Origin: an uncultured Verrucomicrobia subdivision 3 bacterium
GTDB lineage: Bacteria > Verrucomicrobiota > Verrucomicrobiia > Limisphaerales > UBA11358
Direction: 5' to 3'
Assembly: GCA_903875465.1 (NCBI GenBank)
Contig: CAIQWB010000007.1
Location: 1 to 56,389 of the forward strand
Length of the DNA: 56,389 nt
Positions 11,312 to 31,279 of the stretch are shown one piece after another (position 1 is the first letter of the stretch; each line of letters begins with the position of its first letter). Position numbers and translations under genes: made by a program. Under the pieces are notes generated by a model, which saw only the letters and a list, made by a program, of their open reading frames with translations, searched no databases and was not told the origin of the DNA.

Positions 11312-12775
11312 ATGAAAATTCTGCTAGCCAGCAGCGAGGTCCACCCCTACTCCAAAACTGGCGGCTTGGCGGACATGGTCGGCGCTCTGGGAAAAGCATT
11401 GGCGGTGGCCGGTCATGAGGCCGCCATTGTCACGCCCTTGTATCGGGGGCTGCGGGAGAAGTTTCCCGAAATGCGGCACGTGGATTGGTACCTGAACCTG
11501 CCGATGGGCCAGCGCATGGTGACTGCCCAATTATGGATGCTGGTGCCGCAGCCTGGCCTTGTCATTTATTTTGTGGACCAGCCCGCCTACTTTGACCGGG
11601 CGGGGATTTACCATGAGGATAACATCAGTTATTTGGACAACGCGGAGCGCTACGTGTTTTTCTCCAAATGTGTCGCCCATCTGGCGCGGTATCTGCCATG
11701 GCAGTCCGACTTGGTGCATGTTCACGACTGGCAGGTGGGGTTGGTTCCACCACTCATGTTGCAGCAGCAAAGGGAAGGGTGGGTCAAACCGCCGCCGACC
11801 TGCCTGACGATCCACAATCTGGCTTATCAAGGAGTCTTCGCGCCCGAAGCATTTGCGCTCACCAATTTGCCGGAGGAATTTTTCGGGGTTGAGGGGGTGG
11901 AATATTACGGCCAGCTTAACTGCCTCAAGGCAGGGATTGCCTTCGCCGATCGCATCACCACCGTCAGTCCCCGTTATGCCCGGGAAATTACCACCGAAGA
12001 ATTTGGCTGCGGATTGGACGGTTTTTTGCGCAACCGTCAAGGGCGGTTAACGGGAATTCTTAATGGGGTGGATTACGGCGACTGGACCACCACTAAAAAC
12101 CGTTTCCTCAAAGCGTCTTATTCTGCCTCCAGCATCCGCGGCAAGGAGCGAAACAAGCTCGAATTGCAGCGGGAAATGGGTTTGCCGGCGGATCGCAAAA
12201 TTCCATTGTTTGGGACGGTTTCGCGCCTGGCCGAGCAAAAAGGCGTGGACATCCAGCTCGGAGCCCTCGAGGAAATGTTGTATACTGGGCTGCAATTTGT
12301 GCTGTTGGGGAGTGGTTCGCCGGTTTTTGAACGGGCTTATGTGGATCTGGCCCGCCGATTTCCCCTGCAAGTAGCGGTGCGGATAGGATTTAATGAAGGA
12401 TTATCCCATCGGATTGAGGCGGGTTGTGATTTTTACCTGATGCCATCCCAGTTTGAGCCGTGTGGCTTGAATCAAATGTATAGTTTGCGCTATGGCACGA
12501 TCCCCATCGTCCGGGCGGTCGGCGGACTGGACGACAGTGTTGTGGATTACATCGCGAATGCCGAACTGGCGGACGGTATTAAATTTCGTGAATACTCAGC
12601 CGTGGCACTTGCCAAGGGCATCCGTAAAGCTCTGGCGCTGTATCAGGAACCAAACTTGCTAAGACATTACCGGCGCAACGCCATGGCGGTGGATTTTTCA
12701 TGGGAACGAACGGTTGAGGATTATTTACGGGTGTATCGAAGTGCATTGGGCATGGTCACGCCGGTTAAAGCTTAA
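11312..12775 (+). CDS. glgA: glycogen synthase (ADP-glucose type, GT5)
   Basis: A 487-residue GT5 glycosyltransferase that elongates alpha-1,4-glucan from ADP-glucose. The ADP-glucose loop KTGGL is at residues 15-19, HDWQ lies near 138, and the C-terminal GT-B domain has PSQFEPCGLNQMYSLRYGTIPIVR, which contains the retaining-enzyme Glu. Full length. It lies close behind serS. A GH57 branching enzyme at 35761-37335 would provide the branch points, so glycogen storage is likely. No glgC or glgP is seen in the window. Confidence 0.96.
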   Translation: MKILLASSEVHPYSKTGGLADMVGALGKALAVAGHEAAIVTPLYRGLREKFPEMRHVDWYLNLPMGQRMVTAQLWMLVPQPGLVIYFVDQPAYFDRAGIYHEDNISYLDNAERYVFFSKCVAHLARYLPWQSDLVHVHDWQVGLVPPLMLQQQREGWVKPPPTCLTIHNLAYQGVFAPEAFALTNLPEEFFGVEGVEYYGQLNCLKAGIAFADRITTVSPRYAREITTEEFGCGLDGFLRNRQGRLTGILNGVDYGDWTTTKNRFLKASYSASSIRGKERNKLELQREMGLPADRKIPLFGTVSRLAEQKGVDIQLGALEEMLYTGLQFVLLGSGSPVFERAYVDLARRFPLQVAVRIGFNEGLSHRIEAGCDFYLMPSQFEPCGLNQMYSLRYGTIPIVRAVGGLDDSVVDYIANAELADGIKFREYSAVALAKGIRKALALYQEPNLLRHYRRNAMAVDFSWERTVEDYLRVYRSALGMVTPVKA

Positions 12776-12891
12776 GACCGAAAACTCTGGCAAGGATAAA
12801 TTTTGCTCGCTAGCTTAAGACTTAGTAAATATAACAAACATTGTGCAGCTACAATAGAACCGATAATCAATCCCCAAACCTTCAATACCAT
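12772..12891 (-). CDS. possible 39-residue single-span membrane peptide
   Basis: A short frame from ATG 12891 to TAA 12772-12774, overlapping the glgA stop in a convergent arrangement. The peptide starts MVLKVWGLIIGSIVAAQ and is mostly hydrophobic, then ends in a basic, Cys-containing tail, like small bitopic membrane proteins. No ribosome-binding site is seen. It lies in an unusually AT-rich stretch, where chance hydrophobic frames are common, so confidence is low. Confidence 0.25.
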   Translation of the reverse strand: MVLKVWGLIIGSIVAAQCLLYLLSLKLASKIYPCQSFRS

Positions 12892-13036
12892 TTTAAGGAA
12901 ATTCACAATTTTTTAAAGATTTCTTGCTTTTATATAATTCTGTTATATTTCTACCTCGGCTCTAATGTGAAGTTAGAGAAATACAATCTGGAGAAGAAAA
13001 AATAAATTGGGAATTAAACTTAGCTTACCTATATAT

Positions 13037-13690
13037 ATGAAAAATAAAATCATTGCCACTGCCGGAGTGATCGCCTTGCTGGCCGCCAAATCAAACGCTG
13101 ATGACATCATTTACAACACTACTTATCCTGATCATTGGGATGGTTATGGCTTGCAAGGCTTAGGAATAGCCGTGCAGTTCAATACGATGAACGACACGCA
13201 CCTCACCTCAGTTACCTGGGAAGGAGCTTTGAAGGCGGACTCATCGGTACCCCTTTATTTGTATGGTGACAACGCTGGCAAAATTGGAGACGCTATTAAT
13301 TACCTTGGCGATGCAACCCTGGCAAAAGCCACTGGAACCTATGGCGATCAATCGGTTACCTTCACAACTGATATAATGGTAAATCCAAACACCGAATATT
13401 GGATTTTTGCCAATCCCAATCAATTGAATACTGGCGCGGGTAGCGCATGGACATCGATATTTAGCAGCCTAAACCTGCCTGGAATTGTACTCCCGCCAGG
13501 ACAGGAAACTTTTTTTATAAATGCCTCTGGATCATCATATTCTAATACCGGAGTCAATCAGGAGGATTTTCACCTGCAAGTCACAGGCACTTCCCCTGTC
13601 CCCGAACCGTCAACCTGCGGCATGCTCATCGCAGGCGCATGGCTTTTGAATGCCTCTCGGCGCGGCCAGTTCTGCCGTAAAATGGTTTGA
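13037..13690 (+). CDS. PEP-CTERM sorting-domain exported protein
   Basis: A 217-residue exported protein. A Sec signal peptide (about residues 1-21, MKNKIIATAGVIALLAAK) leads to a mostly beta-type, Asn/Thr/Gly-rich domain. The C-terminus shows VPEPST, a hydrophobic stretch and a basic end (NASRRGQFCRK), the PEP-CTERM signal recognised by exosortase. An upstream TTG at 13007 has a GGAGAAG at 12990-12996, so a 10-residue longer product is possible; the ATG fits the signal peptide better. Its GC is distinctly lower than neighbours (27 of 60 in 13321-13380). Ligand unknown. The exosortase must lie elsewhere. Confidence 0.88.
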   Translation: MKNKIIATAGVIALLAAKSNADDIIYNTTYPDHWDGYGLQGLGIAVQFNTMNDTHLTSVTWEGALKADSSVPLYLYGDNAGKIGDAINYLGDATLAKATGTYGDQSVTFTTDIMVNPNTEYWIFANPNQLNTGAGSAWTSIFSSLNLPGIVLPPGQETFFINASGSSYSNTGVNQEDFHLQVTGTSPVPEPSTCGMLIAGAWLLNASRRGQFCRKMV

Positions 13691-28113: not shown

Positions 28114-28237
28114 GCTCCGGAGAATGGGTGCCGTGCCGATTTTATCCGCGGGGGGATCTATTTGAAATTCCAGTGAAACCCGACATTTAACCAGTGGACA
28201 CCCCCGGTTTGGACGATAAAGGATGCCGCTTGACCGC

Positions 28238-28278
28238 TTCCCCCTCACCCCTGCCCTGTCCCCAAGGGCAAGGGGGAA
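28238..28278. repeat. REP-like palindrome (CCCCCTCACCCCTGCCC type)
   Basis: TTCCCCCT pairs with AGGGGGAA, with inner arms GCCCT and AGGGC. Read in frame it would give a LTPALSPRARGN-like peptide, a well-known spurious translation of a dispersed repeat. It lies 95 nt before the valS start and explains why the valS frame is open upstream. Confidence 0.7.
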
Positions 28279-28372
28279 TTCACCAAAGACTCACCGCGGT
28301 GCTGGCGTTATCGTTTTAGCCCACGCAGAGTTGCGCAAGGGCGGGTTTCCCGTTAAGATTGCGGTTCCTAAA

Positions 28373-31279
28373 ATGGCCGAATTATCCAAAGCTTACGAAC
28401 CTCAGCTGGTTGAGGACAAATGGTACGACTTCTGGCTGAAGCAGAACTGCTTCACCGCCAATCCGAAGTCGGCCAAACCCGCGTATTCCATTGTCATCCC
28501 GCCGCCGAATGTCACGGGCATGCTGCACATGGGGCATGTGCTCAACAACACGATCCAGGACATTCTCGCCCGCAAGGCGCGCATGGATGGCAAGGAAGTG
28601 CTGTGGCTGCCGGGCACGGATCACGCCGGCATTGCCACGCAGGTAATGGTGGAAAAGCAGCTCAAGAAGGAGGAAAAGAAACCGCGGCACGACCTGGGAC
28701 GCGAGGAATTCTTGAAGCGCGTCTGGCTCTGGAAGGAGAAGCACGGCGACATCATCATCAATCAGCTTAAGAAGCTGGGCAGTTCCTGCGACTGGACGCG
28801 GGAACGCTTCACCATGGACCCGGAGTATTCCCGCTGCGTCCAGAAGGTGTTCGTGGAGCTCTACAAAAAGGGCCTGATTTATCGCGGCAAACGCATGGTG
28901 AACTGGTGCCCGGTTTCGCAGACGGCGCTCTCCGACGAGGAAGTCGAAATGAAAGCGCAGAAGGGCTTCATGTACCATTTCAAGGTGGAAGTGGCGGAAC
29001 TGCCCGGCACGTGGCTGACGATTGCCACCACGCGGCCCGAGACGATTCCCGGCGACACGGCCGTGGCAGTAAACCCGAAGGACCCGCGCTACACGCACCT
29101 TATTGGAAAGCACATCGTGCGCCCCCTGCCCGCCGAATTGCCGCGCGAGCAAAAGCTCATCCCCATCATCGGCGACGAGCATGTGGATTTTGAATTCGGC
29201 ACCGGCGTGCTGAAAGTCACCCCGGCGCATGACAAGGCGGATTTTGATATCGGCACGCGCCACAAGCTGCCGCTCATTGAAGTGATCAATGCCGATGGCT
29301 CGATGAACGACCTGGCCGGCGCGGATTTGCGCGGCCTGGACCGTTTCAAGGCCCGCAAAGTGGCCGTGGAAAAACTCACTGAGCAGGAAGCCCTCGTGGA
29401 GGCCAAACCCTACGAGAACAACGTCGGCTACAGCCAGCGGGCGGATGTGCCCATTGAACCGCGCCTGAGCGAGCAATGGTTTTTGAAATATCCCGCCGTC
29501 GAGCAGTCCAAGGCGTGCGTGGCCGAGGGCCGGATGAAATTCCATCCCGACCGCTGGGCGAAGGTGTACGACCACTGGCTGACCAACATCCAGGACTGGT
29601 GCATCAGCCGGCAACTGTGGTGGGGGCACCGGATTCCGGTGTGGAGCAAACGGTGGCAGGGAAACCTGAGGGATATTTTGACCGATATCGCGGGATTAAT
29701 TATCAAAGACGTATATCCCCAGCCGGCAGGATTTGATTCTCAAGATTTAGCTATAACAATTAATGGCAAACAATATCTTGCTGACTCGGTAGCTTTACAG
29801 AAGCTGGCTAACTCAATTGATAAATCGTTTGATCAAACCAGTGAATACTATGTTCAAATTGCTACTGTTAATCCATCAATTCAAAAAAATCTCGAATTAG
29901 CTGGTGTTGAGTTTAGCCAGGACTCTGACGTTCTCGACACCTGGTTCAGCTCTTGGCTGTGGCCCTTCGCCACGATGGGCTGGCCCGAGCAGACCGAGAC
30001 GCTCAAGAAATTCTATCCAACCACCGACCTCGTCACCGGGCCGGACATCATTTTCTTCTGGGTCGCGCGCATGATCATGGCGGGCTATGAATTCATGGGC
30101 GAGCCCCAGTTCGGCCTGCCGGACGCCCTGCCCTTCCAGAACGTCTATTTCACCGGCATCATCCGCGACAAGCAGGGCCGCAAGATGTCCAAGACCCTCG
30201 GCAACTCGCCCGACCCCATCGAACTCATCACCAAGTACGGCGCCGACGCCCTCCGCTTCGGCACCATGCGCGGCGCGCCGCTCGGCCAGGACGTGATGTT
30301 CGATGAAAAGGACGTGGAACTCGGCCGCAATTTCTGCAACAAACTCTGGAACGCCTGCCGTTTCCGCCAGATGCAGGGCGGCGAGGTGCAGGGCGAAATC
30401 AACCCCGCCCTCCTCACCAACGACGACAAGTGGATTCTCTTGAAGCTTGATGCGGCCATTCGCGAGCTGGACACCGCCTTTGCGGCCTATAAATTCAGCG
30501 ACGCGACCGCCGCGCTTTACCGTTTCTTCTGGAACGAGTATTGCGACTGGTATGTGGAAGCCAGCAAGGCGGTGTTCTACGGCACGGATGACGCGCTCAA
30601 GGCGAACACTCTGGCGGTGATTGATTTCGTCCTGTCGCACACGCTGCGCCTGTTTCATCCGTTCATTCCGTTCATCTCGGAGGAACTCTGGCACGGCATG
30701 GGTTACAGCACCGAGATGCCGGCCGACCAAGGCGGTGAGACGATCATGTACGCCCACTGGCCCAAGCCGTTTGATGCCGAATTCACCGCACATTACGGCT
30801 TGGAAGCCTGCTGGCTGGACATCGTCAATGCCCGGAACGAATTCGTGACCCAAGGCCGCAACCTCCGCCGCGAGGGCAACATCCCCGCGAACAAAAAGGT
30901 GAAGTTCCAGTTCCAGCCCGCCGCCCAACCCGCGCCGCAGGACTTGGAAGTGCTCAAGATTCTGCTCAATGCGGAATCTTTGGAAGTGGTGCCGGCGGAC
31001 TTCCAACCGCGCAAAGGCACCCCGACCCTGCGCGGAGCCATCGGCGAACTCTTCATGCCCCTCGAAGGTCTCATCGATGTGGACGCGGAAAAAGGCCGGC
31101 TCCAAAAAGAGATCGAGAAGTTCGACAGCGAAATTTTGAAGGTGGAACAAAAGCTGGCCAATCCTAATTTCACCACGAAAGTGCCGGCCGCGGTGCTGGA
31201 AGATCACCGGAACCGGTTGATTGAGTGGCAGGCCAAGCGGGAGCATGCGCGGGCGGCGCTGGCCGCCTTGGAAGGTTGA
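28373..31279 (+). CDS. valS: valyl-tRNA synthetase with AT-rich in-frame insertion
   Basis: A 968-residue class Ia synthetase. The HIGH motif is HMGH at residues 52-55 (PPNVTGMLHMGH), the editing domain is present (TIATTRPETIPGDTAVAVNP), KMSKT is at 604-608 and a C-terminal coiled coil ends the protein. Start ATG 28373 (MAELSKAYEPQLVEDKW) is chosen because earlier codons lie in a REP-like repeat. Between WWGHRIPVW and DVLDTWFSSWLWPF, bases about 29660-29925 form a block of roughly 85 codons with much lower GC and AT-ending codons (42 of 120 G+C in 29761-29880, against 38 of 60 in 30121-30180). Most ValRS have a shorter loop here. The frame is intact, so the enzyme is probably functional. Confidence 0.95.
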   Translation: MAELSKAYEPQLVEDKWYDFWLKQNCFTANPKSAKPAYSIVIPPPNVTGMLHMGHVLNNTIQDILARKARMDGKEVLWLPGTDHAGIATQVMVEKQLKKEEKKPRHDLGREEFLKRVWLWKEKHGDIIINQLKKLGSSCDWTRERFTMDPEYSRCVQKVFVELYKKGLIYRGKRMVNWCPVSQTALSDEEVEMKAQKGFMYHFKVEVAELPGTWLTIATTRPETIPGDTAVAVNPKDPRYTHLIGKHIVRPLPAELPREQKLIPIIGDEHVDFEFGTGVLKVTPAHDKADFDIGTRHKLPLIEVINADGSMNDLAGADLRGLDRFKARKVAVEKLTEQEALVEAKPYENNVGYSQRADVPIEPRLSEQWFLKYPAVEQSKACVAEGRMKFHPDRWAKVYDHWLTNIQDWCISRQLWWGHRIPVWSKRWQGNLRDILTDIAGLIIKDVYPQPAGFDSQDLAITINGKQYLADSVALQKLANSIDKSFDQTSEYYVQIATVNPSIQKNLELAGVEFSQDSDVLDTWFSSWLWPFATMGWPEQTETLKKFYPTTDLVTGPDIIFFWVARMIMAGYEFMGEPQFGLPDALPFQNVYFTGIIRDKQGRKMSKTLGNSPDPIELITKYGADALRFGTMRGAPLGQDVMFDEKDVELGRNFCNKLWNACRFRQMQGGEVQGEINPALLTNDDKWILLKLDAAIRELDTAFAAYKFSDATAALYRFFWNEYCDWYVEASKAVFYGTDDALKANTLAVIDFVLSHTLRLFHPFIPFISEELWHGMGYSTEMPADQGGETIMYAHWPKPFDAEFTAHYGLEACWLDIVNARNEFVTQGRNLRREGNIPANKKVKFQFQPAAQPAPQDLEVLKILLNAESLEVVPADFQPRKGTPTLRGAIGELFMPLEGLIDVDAEKGRLQKEIEKFDSEILKVEQKLANPNFTTKVPAAVLEDHRNRLIEWQAKREHARAALAALEG
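29660..29925 (+). other. AT-rich in-frame block within valS
   Basis: This block encodes roughly residues 430-517 of ValRS, between the WWGHRIPVW and DVLDTWFSS catalytic-core motifs. G+C falls to about 35 percent in its centre while both flanks are above 60 percent, and codons such as TTA, ATA, AAT and TCA appear. The encoded segment has no zinc knuckle, and no intein, integrase or other mobile-protein motif that I can see. Confidence 0.75.

Follow-up and report, generated by a model that had tools for sequence, protein, structure and literature searches.

The valS gene and its AT-rich block

The window analysed here is a 56,389-nucleotide stretch (contig CAIQWB010000007.1, positions 1 to 56,389, assembly GCA_903875465.1) from an uncultured member of Verrucomicrobia subdivision 3 (order Limisphaerales), and its valS gene, which encodes valyl-tRNA synthetase (ValRS), contains an AT-rich, in-frame block between two conserved motifs. 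We refer to the place between these motifs as the slot and to its occupant as a module or, where short, a spacer. The relevant features are as follows.

28223..31279, + strand: valS open reading frame (ORF), valyl-tRNA synthetase, 1018 amino acids (aa), from the ORF list and curated ValRS models
29522..29533, + strand: second slot, empty in the window, after ORF residue 435 (between ...SKACVAE and GRMKFHP...)
29618..29644, + strand: left edge of the slot, conserved motif WWGHRIPVW
29645..29926, + strand: exchangeable module of 94 codons, G+C 39.0%, G+C at third codon positions (GC3) 0.33, type T00, long class
29927..29953, + strand: right edge of the slot, conserved motif DVLDTWFSS
29639..29713, + strand: predicted strand b1 (model residues 8-15) and helix a1 (17-32), AlphaFold2 model of the block
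29747..29815, + strand: predicted strands b2 (44-48) and b3 (51-53) and helix a2 (57-66), same model
29840..29899, + strand: predicted strand b4 (75-83) and helix a3 (86-94), same model

The enzyme is intact around the block, as an earlier note made from the bare sequence had held: the ORF exceeds the cut-offs of both NCBIfam ValRS models, NF004349 (PRK05729; 1104.7 bits, cut-off 704) and TIGR00422 (valS; 987.9 bits, cut-off 612.1), and carries PF00133, PF08264 and PF10458, the catalytic, anticodon-binding and C-terminal arm domains. Because similarity to relatives starts near ORF residue 50, the true start is likely the ATG at 28373 (MAELSKAYEPQ...). ValRS is single-copy in the window genome as far as searches show: a query of 56 residues gave one match, and the sole other match among those listed for the full-length enzyme, about 30% identical, coincides with isoleucyl-tRNA synthetase (IleRS).

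The block itself is real, though its length between the motifs is 94 codons and not the roughly 85 first proposed. G+C makes up 110 of its 282 bases (29645-29926), against a minimum of 55.3% elsewhere in valS (780 sliding 282-bp windows, module excluded), with GC3 at 0.33 versus 0.81 in the remaining gene and a sharp step in composition at both the left and right edges. The windowed G+C and codon check that the note had recommended thus confirmed a low-GC block, and its count of 42 G+C in the 120 bases of 29761-29880 was exact on recount. The codons TTA, ATA and TCA, by contrast, do not dominate (4, 1 and 2 of 94), though they are indeed rare in the rest of valS (1, 0 and 0 of 875). Measured over 282 bp, only two other places in the whole window, one at 1957 and one within 12658-13212, are equally AT-rich, and a search of the window genome for further copies of the module returned only the module itself.

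Structure prediction, likewise recommended in the note, yielded a compact model for the block alone, computed with 14 related modules (mean predicted local distance difference test score, pLDDT, 79.4; predicted template modelling score, pTM, 0.70); the AlphaFold model of the whole ValRS was mediocre (pLDDT 70.1, pTM 0.51). The window module is predicted to be a small alpha/beta domain whose elements run b1-a1-b2-b3-a2-b4 followed by a3, that is, in ferredoxin-like order plus an extra helix, a likeness of predicted order only. Canonical ValRS has only the last strand and helix at this position, and the corresponding b4-a3 pattern, V.VAT....A..LE..GFTQDP, is retained in many long modules. No significant structural match was obtained for the window module at E <= 0.001, either with Foldseek against PDB or among the viral structures of BFVD. 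The best VIA scores were Z 5.3 for NiaR and 4.8 for HPr, with Cas6 and PII proteins also in the range of 4-5, values that probably signify a common arrangement and nothing more specific. Sequence comparison gave no convincing known family (best Pfam E 0.025, best PHROG E 0.041), and the best relative of type T00 among sequences of solved structures had E 0.69. Usual inteins are longer than 94 aa, and no intein family appeared among the Pfam matches of the window ValRS, in a general scan that did not search for splicing or homing motifs.

Slot diversity among relatives

We searched 48 other genomes of the genus and could read the slot in 38 of 49 genomes (window included), the remainder having partial genes or being missed by the motif pattern. 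Across the 38, the slot ranges from 22 to 202 aa and its sequences are mostly unalignable, which is not the picture of an old lineage feature, with a low-GC block of the same length in all close relatives. Neither is the block a recent insertion peculiar to this genome, an option raised in the earlier note: another genome (G038) holds a module of the same 94-aa type, identical at 40 of 64 residues of the variable part, and most readable congener slots hold a module of their own. Among 29 aligned congeneric ValRS, mean pairwise identity is 0.03-0.07 over ORF residues 481-555, compared with mostly 0.7-0.95 in the catalytic part to either side and 0.53-0.64 in the C-terminal fifth. Nothing resembling the slot was found in IleRS, our control, where the lowest identity window (0.30) lies near the C-terminus (14 genomes; usable ORFs from 14 of 30 loci).

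A larger ValRS set (146 loci, 117 of them full-length and 90 distinct once duplicates were dropped) resolves the slot into two classes. The short class has about 21-54 aa, usually begins with Y and often follows the pattern Y....V.CG.E.P...W.QD; the long class has 55-108 aa, usually does not begin with Y and often ends in V.VAT....A..LE..GFTQDP. One further slot of 202 aa contains the domain LPD3, discussed below, flanked by a short-type start and a short-type end. Slots of at least 50 aa average 50.4% G+C, compared with 59.4% for the remainder of valS, and have the lower value in 47 of 55 cases, while slots below 50 aa match the rest of the gene (0.556 vs 0.554; 35 rows). Most long slots share the low G+C, which is therefore a property of the module class. 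Long modules are highly diverse: with the last 28 residues removed, 24 of 1378 pairs score above a shuffled-sequence background, leaving 35 clusters among 53 slots. Profile comparison links long modules mostly through the last strand and helix, with the variable parts mostly unmatched, and homology of all long modules over their full length was therefore rejected. Only short spacers of 41-42 aa occur in a clade of 20 rows whose members include genomes labelled Akkermansiaceae and Verrucomicrobiales.

Variation at the slot is not confined to the genus. A search with the 56-residue ValRS query found a match in 262 of 313 genomes, 40 of these within the genus. From among the matches listed, sorted by similarity, 78 regions were picked by hand, and the sample therefore leans toward closer relatives; the 90 loci classified, of which two (L229 and L258) gave no slot, provided 88 slots from 87 genomes, G581 being counted twice. 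Beyond the genus, and classed by length alone, 59 slots are short, 28 are long and one holds LPD3. These 88 slots span 32 families, with long or LPD3 slots in 17 and both states in nine. A profile of type T00 matched 13 of 320 genomes of the order, always in ValRS, and the window genome alone among 387 genomes of a phylum sample; T00 outside ValRS was seen in neither set.

Three genomes deserve separate mention. G037 holds two valS pieces (L013 on contig C132, L065 on C93), each at a contig end, whose overlap includes the slot; the slot has 86 aa in one and 22 aa in the other, and the pieces could represent a strain mixture polymorphic at the slot. G581 carries two different valS genes on contigs C89 and C125 (L225 and L251; the same records as L075 and L087) with modules of types T05 and T00, so that either the bin is mixed or the second copy is genuine. 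In G459 (L202/L310), which belongs to another family, the segment of 56 residues immediately before the slot matches that of the window at every position (56 of 56), closer than in most congeners; despite this identical stretch, its slot holds a 22-aa short spacer.

Module exchange and the LPD3 occupants

Sister enzymes with nearly the same core, as computed over well-filled core columns, carry unrelated slots: 93 vs 32 aa in L098/L105 (98.3% core identity), 94 vs 55 aa in L008/L019 (97.9%) and 55 vs 202 aa in L019/L047 (97.9%). The window ValRS and that of G043 are 95% identical over 792 anchored columns and 17% identical in the block, and among pairs of long-slot enzymes at 80-99.5% core identity only 9 of 162 share a module type. 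To place valS among its neighbours, we compared reciprocal-best ORF pairs on the contigs around it in 11 chosen congeneric genomes (277 of 435 pairs passed filters, some antisense shadow ORFs among them). A replaced internal block, defined as at least 40 residues in at least one gene at below 35% identity with conserved anchors on either side, was present in 46 of 55 valS pairs versus 0 of 222 other ortholog pairs.

A FastTree tree (843 core columns, 90 rows) requires at least 19 changes between short and long slots and at least 50 changes of subtype, with two Y-starting spacers (51 and 54 aa) and the LPD3 row (L047) counted as short. T00, the window type, and types T11, T13, T05, T07, T12, T03 and T25 each occur in separate clades of this tree. 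The short class has a conserved sequence of its own, which makes its re-creation by trimming of a long module unlikely; replacement from other alleles would be the simplest account of the class changes. We regard exchange of modules between lineages as well supported by these sequence comparisons. Recombination with a distant ValRS, another of the origins first proposed, is partly borne out: replacement fits best, but as a recurrent, order-wide process and not as one event in this genome.

Module and core dN/dS (the ratio of nonsynonymous to synonymous divergence) were compared in ten pairs sharing a module type; the ratio was computable in six, module dS being saturated in the other four. In three pairs it was lower in the module than in the core (L008/L010, 0.05 vs 0.19; L087/L098, 0.07 vs 0.22; L031/L128, 0.11 vs 0.17), and the opposite pairs are taken up below. 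As read from these alignments, selection within types is purifying and mixed relative to the core; the values indicate modules that are constrained within type, sometimes beyond the core, yet fast-diverging in the long term.

The one occupant with a convincing family assignment among 57 slot sequences scanned is LPD3 (PF18798, large polyvalent protein-associated domain 3); the next Pfam match was DUF4946, at E 0.006. According to PMC5512222, the name LPD3 derives from polyvalent proteins that belong to phages and conjugative elements. The 202-aa slot occupant in G039 matches PF18798 (E 2.7e-18) and PHROG 18222 (E 8.7e-18), and that in G486, from another family, matches PF18798 (E 1.2e-18); 89 of 202 aligned residues are the same in both occupants. 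Within the order, PF18798 exceeded its curated cut-off in 18 of 293 genomes and lay within a ValRS ORF in 17 of these, the exception being a 257-aa ORF in G644. LPD3 occupies the module slot in 10 genomes and, in nine, the second slot, which follows ORF residue 435 and lies some 40 residues upstream; two genomes (G482 and G518) have it at both. The domain, described from proteins of phages and conjugative elements, is in this order nearly always embedded in the host ValRS. The window module is not LPD3: PF18798 has no match in the window ValRS, and no LPD3 was found in the window genome. We also considered whether the host protein could be a phage polyvalent protein and rejected this, since it is a ValRS with ordinary ValRS domains.

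Related LPD3 copies occur in phage records, and conserved residues are common to the phage and ValRS copies, including those of G039 and G486. R18, G41, P70, K115, Y124 and H126 are invariant in 11 chosen LPD3 (eight from ValRS, two from phages, one from another non-ValRS ORF), while in a fuller set several ValRS copies, judged by eye, are without the late Y or H (e.g. L329, L319, L320 and L315). No relatives of LPD3 were found among PDB sequences. In a wider phylum sample, LPD3 was detected in 32 of 288 genomes, and 21 of 51 among the matches listed fall in open frames of at least 2000 aa. A profile built from sequences found within this same set re-found LPD3 at 12 of 20 such loci, in ORFs that are all without a match to ValRS.

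The two LPD3 copies within each of the G482 (L315/L332) and G518 (L319/L331) enzymes differ from one another and, by eye, resemble the same-slot copies of other genomes. The second slot, after residue 435, holds GC-rich low-complexity inserts in some other genomes. More generally, other loops of valS in the window and its relatives contain mostly GC-rich, low-complexity in-frame inserts, some REP-like, at 28223-28372 in the window and near ValRS ORF residues ~262, ~435, ~720 and ~790 in relatives; examples are LTPALSPKGGEG in L023 and PLTPALSPRARGN in the N-terminal extension of the window ValRS ORF. In composition these inserts are the opposite of the slot module.

Two observations concern the surroundings of valS. 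A citramalate/isopropylmalate synthase-like ORF (named by eye) lies near the gene in 20 of 52 flank sets, L072 included, and stands beside both classes (15 long, 5 short). In the window, G+C falls as low as 27% in 12658-13212, before and into an ORF at 13007-13690 whose end resembles what we take to be a PEP-CTERM anchor protein.

What may drive the exchange

These data point to a slot-and-module system in the catalytic half of a single-copy ValRS, in one verrucomicrobial order (Verrucomicrobia subdivision 3/Limisphaerales; uncultured bacteria of fresh water). At the level of sequence, the slot alternates among a short default, many long modules and LPD3, close sisters differ in it, module types recur and selection within types is purifying. 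We infer from the combination of a fixed slot, allelic diversity, recurrence of types, purifying selection and a phage-type occupant that the diversity is kept by an antagonist or a partner. We give even chances to the full reading, in which the block is an allele of a module that is exchanged at the slot and conflict with elements targeting ValRS drives the exchange.

Under the conflict reading, the highly conserved flanks would let homologous recombination replace modules from a donor pool that would be mostly AT-richer and common to several species. Turnover would be maintained, though here we are less certain, by frequency-dependent selection from mobile elements, phages among them, that may encode early proteins binding or modifying the host ValRS; the module could then be an exchangeable guard or decoy surface, keeping such a factor from making contact, and an embedded LPD3 could be a captured element domain turned against its own kind. 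The guard or decoy role is favoured by the phage T4 record, in which the vs gene is annotated 'valyl tRNA synthetase modifier' (NC_000866). This annotation, of a phage protein recorded as acting on the host ValRS in E. coli, serves as precedent for the pressure only, and we claim no homology. A bolder version, in which ValRS is a defence hub whose polymorphic, exchanged guard or decoy domain and LPD3 repeatedly captured into two slots would block parasites of tRNA-Val charging, is less likely than not.

Several results weigh against this account. If flanks were imported along with modules, synonymous divergence beside the slot should be raised, yet 14 hand-chosen sister pairs that differ in module showed no rise (ratios of 0.82-1.05 up to 30 codons from the slot; 12 same-module pairs were also chosen). 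Among the seven closest different-module pairs, one bin was weakly raised (1.48, z 2.0) and another still less so (1.26, z 1.3). At 31-101 codons downstream, the divergence was lowered (0.55-0.60). Hitch-hiking flanks, absent in the 14 pairs and weak and mixed in these seven, were accordingly discarded as proof of recombination. A sliding synonymous profile dips mildly downstream of the slot, but because other conserved stretches dip too, we did not use it as evidence of recombination. Several forks of the FastTree tree are weak. In three same-type pairs, dN/dS was higher in the module than in the core (L081/L084, 0.15 vs 0.08; L029/L043, 0.24 vs 0.06; L003/L009, 0.43 vs 0.09), and in the four pairs with saturated dS module dN exceeded core dN (e.g. 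L001/L003, 0.36 vs 0.12). Scans of viral contigs with the window ValRS, T00 and one LPD3, seeded by short peptide patterns, confirmed no relative; PADLOC assigned no family to the window module, the 202-aa LPD3 slot or the whole window ValRS; and a crude test, swamped by antisense ORFs, found no gene near valS specific to the long class. The genomes are nearly all metagenome-assembled, and the guard or decoy role is deduced from sequence.

Alternatively, the modules could tune the enzyme itself, altering tRNA-Val binding, editing or complex formation as lineages adapt their translation machinery. The position of the slot between conserved motifs of the catalytic half and the purifying selection within types are consistent with this possibility, as is the relation to tRNA interaction that PMC387263 describes for variable segments of aminoacyl-tRNA synthetases. 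We nevertheless consider tuning unlikely, given that sisters 97-98% identical in core columns, whose task is the same, hold unrelated modules or a short spacer, that the default loop has about 22 aa and that a phage-type domain, which tRNA tuning would not predict, occurs in the same slot. Quite unlikely, in our estimation, is an active effector or sensor, with LPD3 and perhaps the small domains acting on RNA when ValRS is perturbed, as a built-in abortive-infection switch. The residues invariant in the 11 chosen LPD3 would suit such a role, and LPD3-carrying polyvalent proteins can also bear predicted RNases, judging from the relevant portion of PMC5512222; that same portion assigns LPD3 itself no activity, several ValRS copies are without the Y or H (by eye), the small long modules are without a catalytic pattern (by eye), LPD3 has no sequence relative in PDB and PADLOC was empty.

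A relaxed, hypermutable surface loop that diverges neutrally and tolerates anything would explain the very high divergence and length variation, the acceptance of GC-rich low-complexity inserts by other ValRS loops and the module dN/dS above core in three of the ten pairs. The purely relaxed form of the fast-evolving loop offered in the earlier note is nonetheless very improbable: dN/dS is 0.05-0.43 in the six computable same-type pairs (dS being saturated in the other four), the predicted alpha/beta fold is compact, the C-terminal strand and helix are conserved in many types, types recur in distant clades and the tolerated inserts have the reverse composition. One recent insertion or recombination event within the gene, peculiar to the window genome, would produce the sharp composition step at both edges, yet the 94-aa type shared with G038, the presence of T00 in 13 of 320 genomes of the order and the modules of most readable congeners leave it scarcely plausible. 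Chimeric assembly or binning is hardly credible either, even with relatives that are nearly all metagenome-assembled and with G581 and G037 holding two valS genes or pieces with different slots, since dozens of assemblies keep an open frame across the slot, its edges conserved, and the pattern is restricted to valS in the tested neighbourhood.

The slot sits at what we take to be the place equivalent to the connective-peptide/zinc-domain insertion of other class Ia synthetases (IleRS, LeuRS and MetRS). Those domains are conserved within each enzyme, in contrast to the hypervariable ValRS slot described here. The layout also resembles that of HsdS, whose target-recognition domains occupy a fixed slot between conserved flanks and comprise many unalignable alternatives exchanged by recombination; HsdS serves restriction, however, whereas the host protein here is an essential translation enzyme. 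Aminoacyl-tRNA synthetases otherwise serve as examples of slow, universal genes. Segmentally variable genes, which include aminoacyl-tRNA synthetases, share with our case a conserved enzyme with one strongly variable segment, and PMC387263 reads such segments (e.g. the ProRS insertion) as tRNA-related or editing domains; here the segment is swapped between sisters 97-98% identical in core columns. Variable segments in conserved enzymes are already known from that source, and a slot of an essential synthetase in which domains are swapped and phage-type ones captured is, to our knowledge, new; our literature search yielded no recognised report of a hypervariable or LPD3-bearing ValRS.

For practical purposes, ValRS trees and marker-gene work on metagenome-assembled genomes in this order should mask the slot. 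The short form, the many long types, LPD3 and double LPD3 together make up a natural panel for asking which parasites target ValRS and how, one that also bears on what T4 Vs and LPD3 do. If the conflict reading is true, core translation enzymes can be front lines of phage-host conflict.

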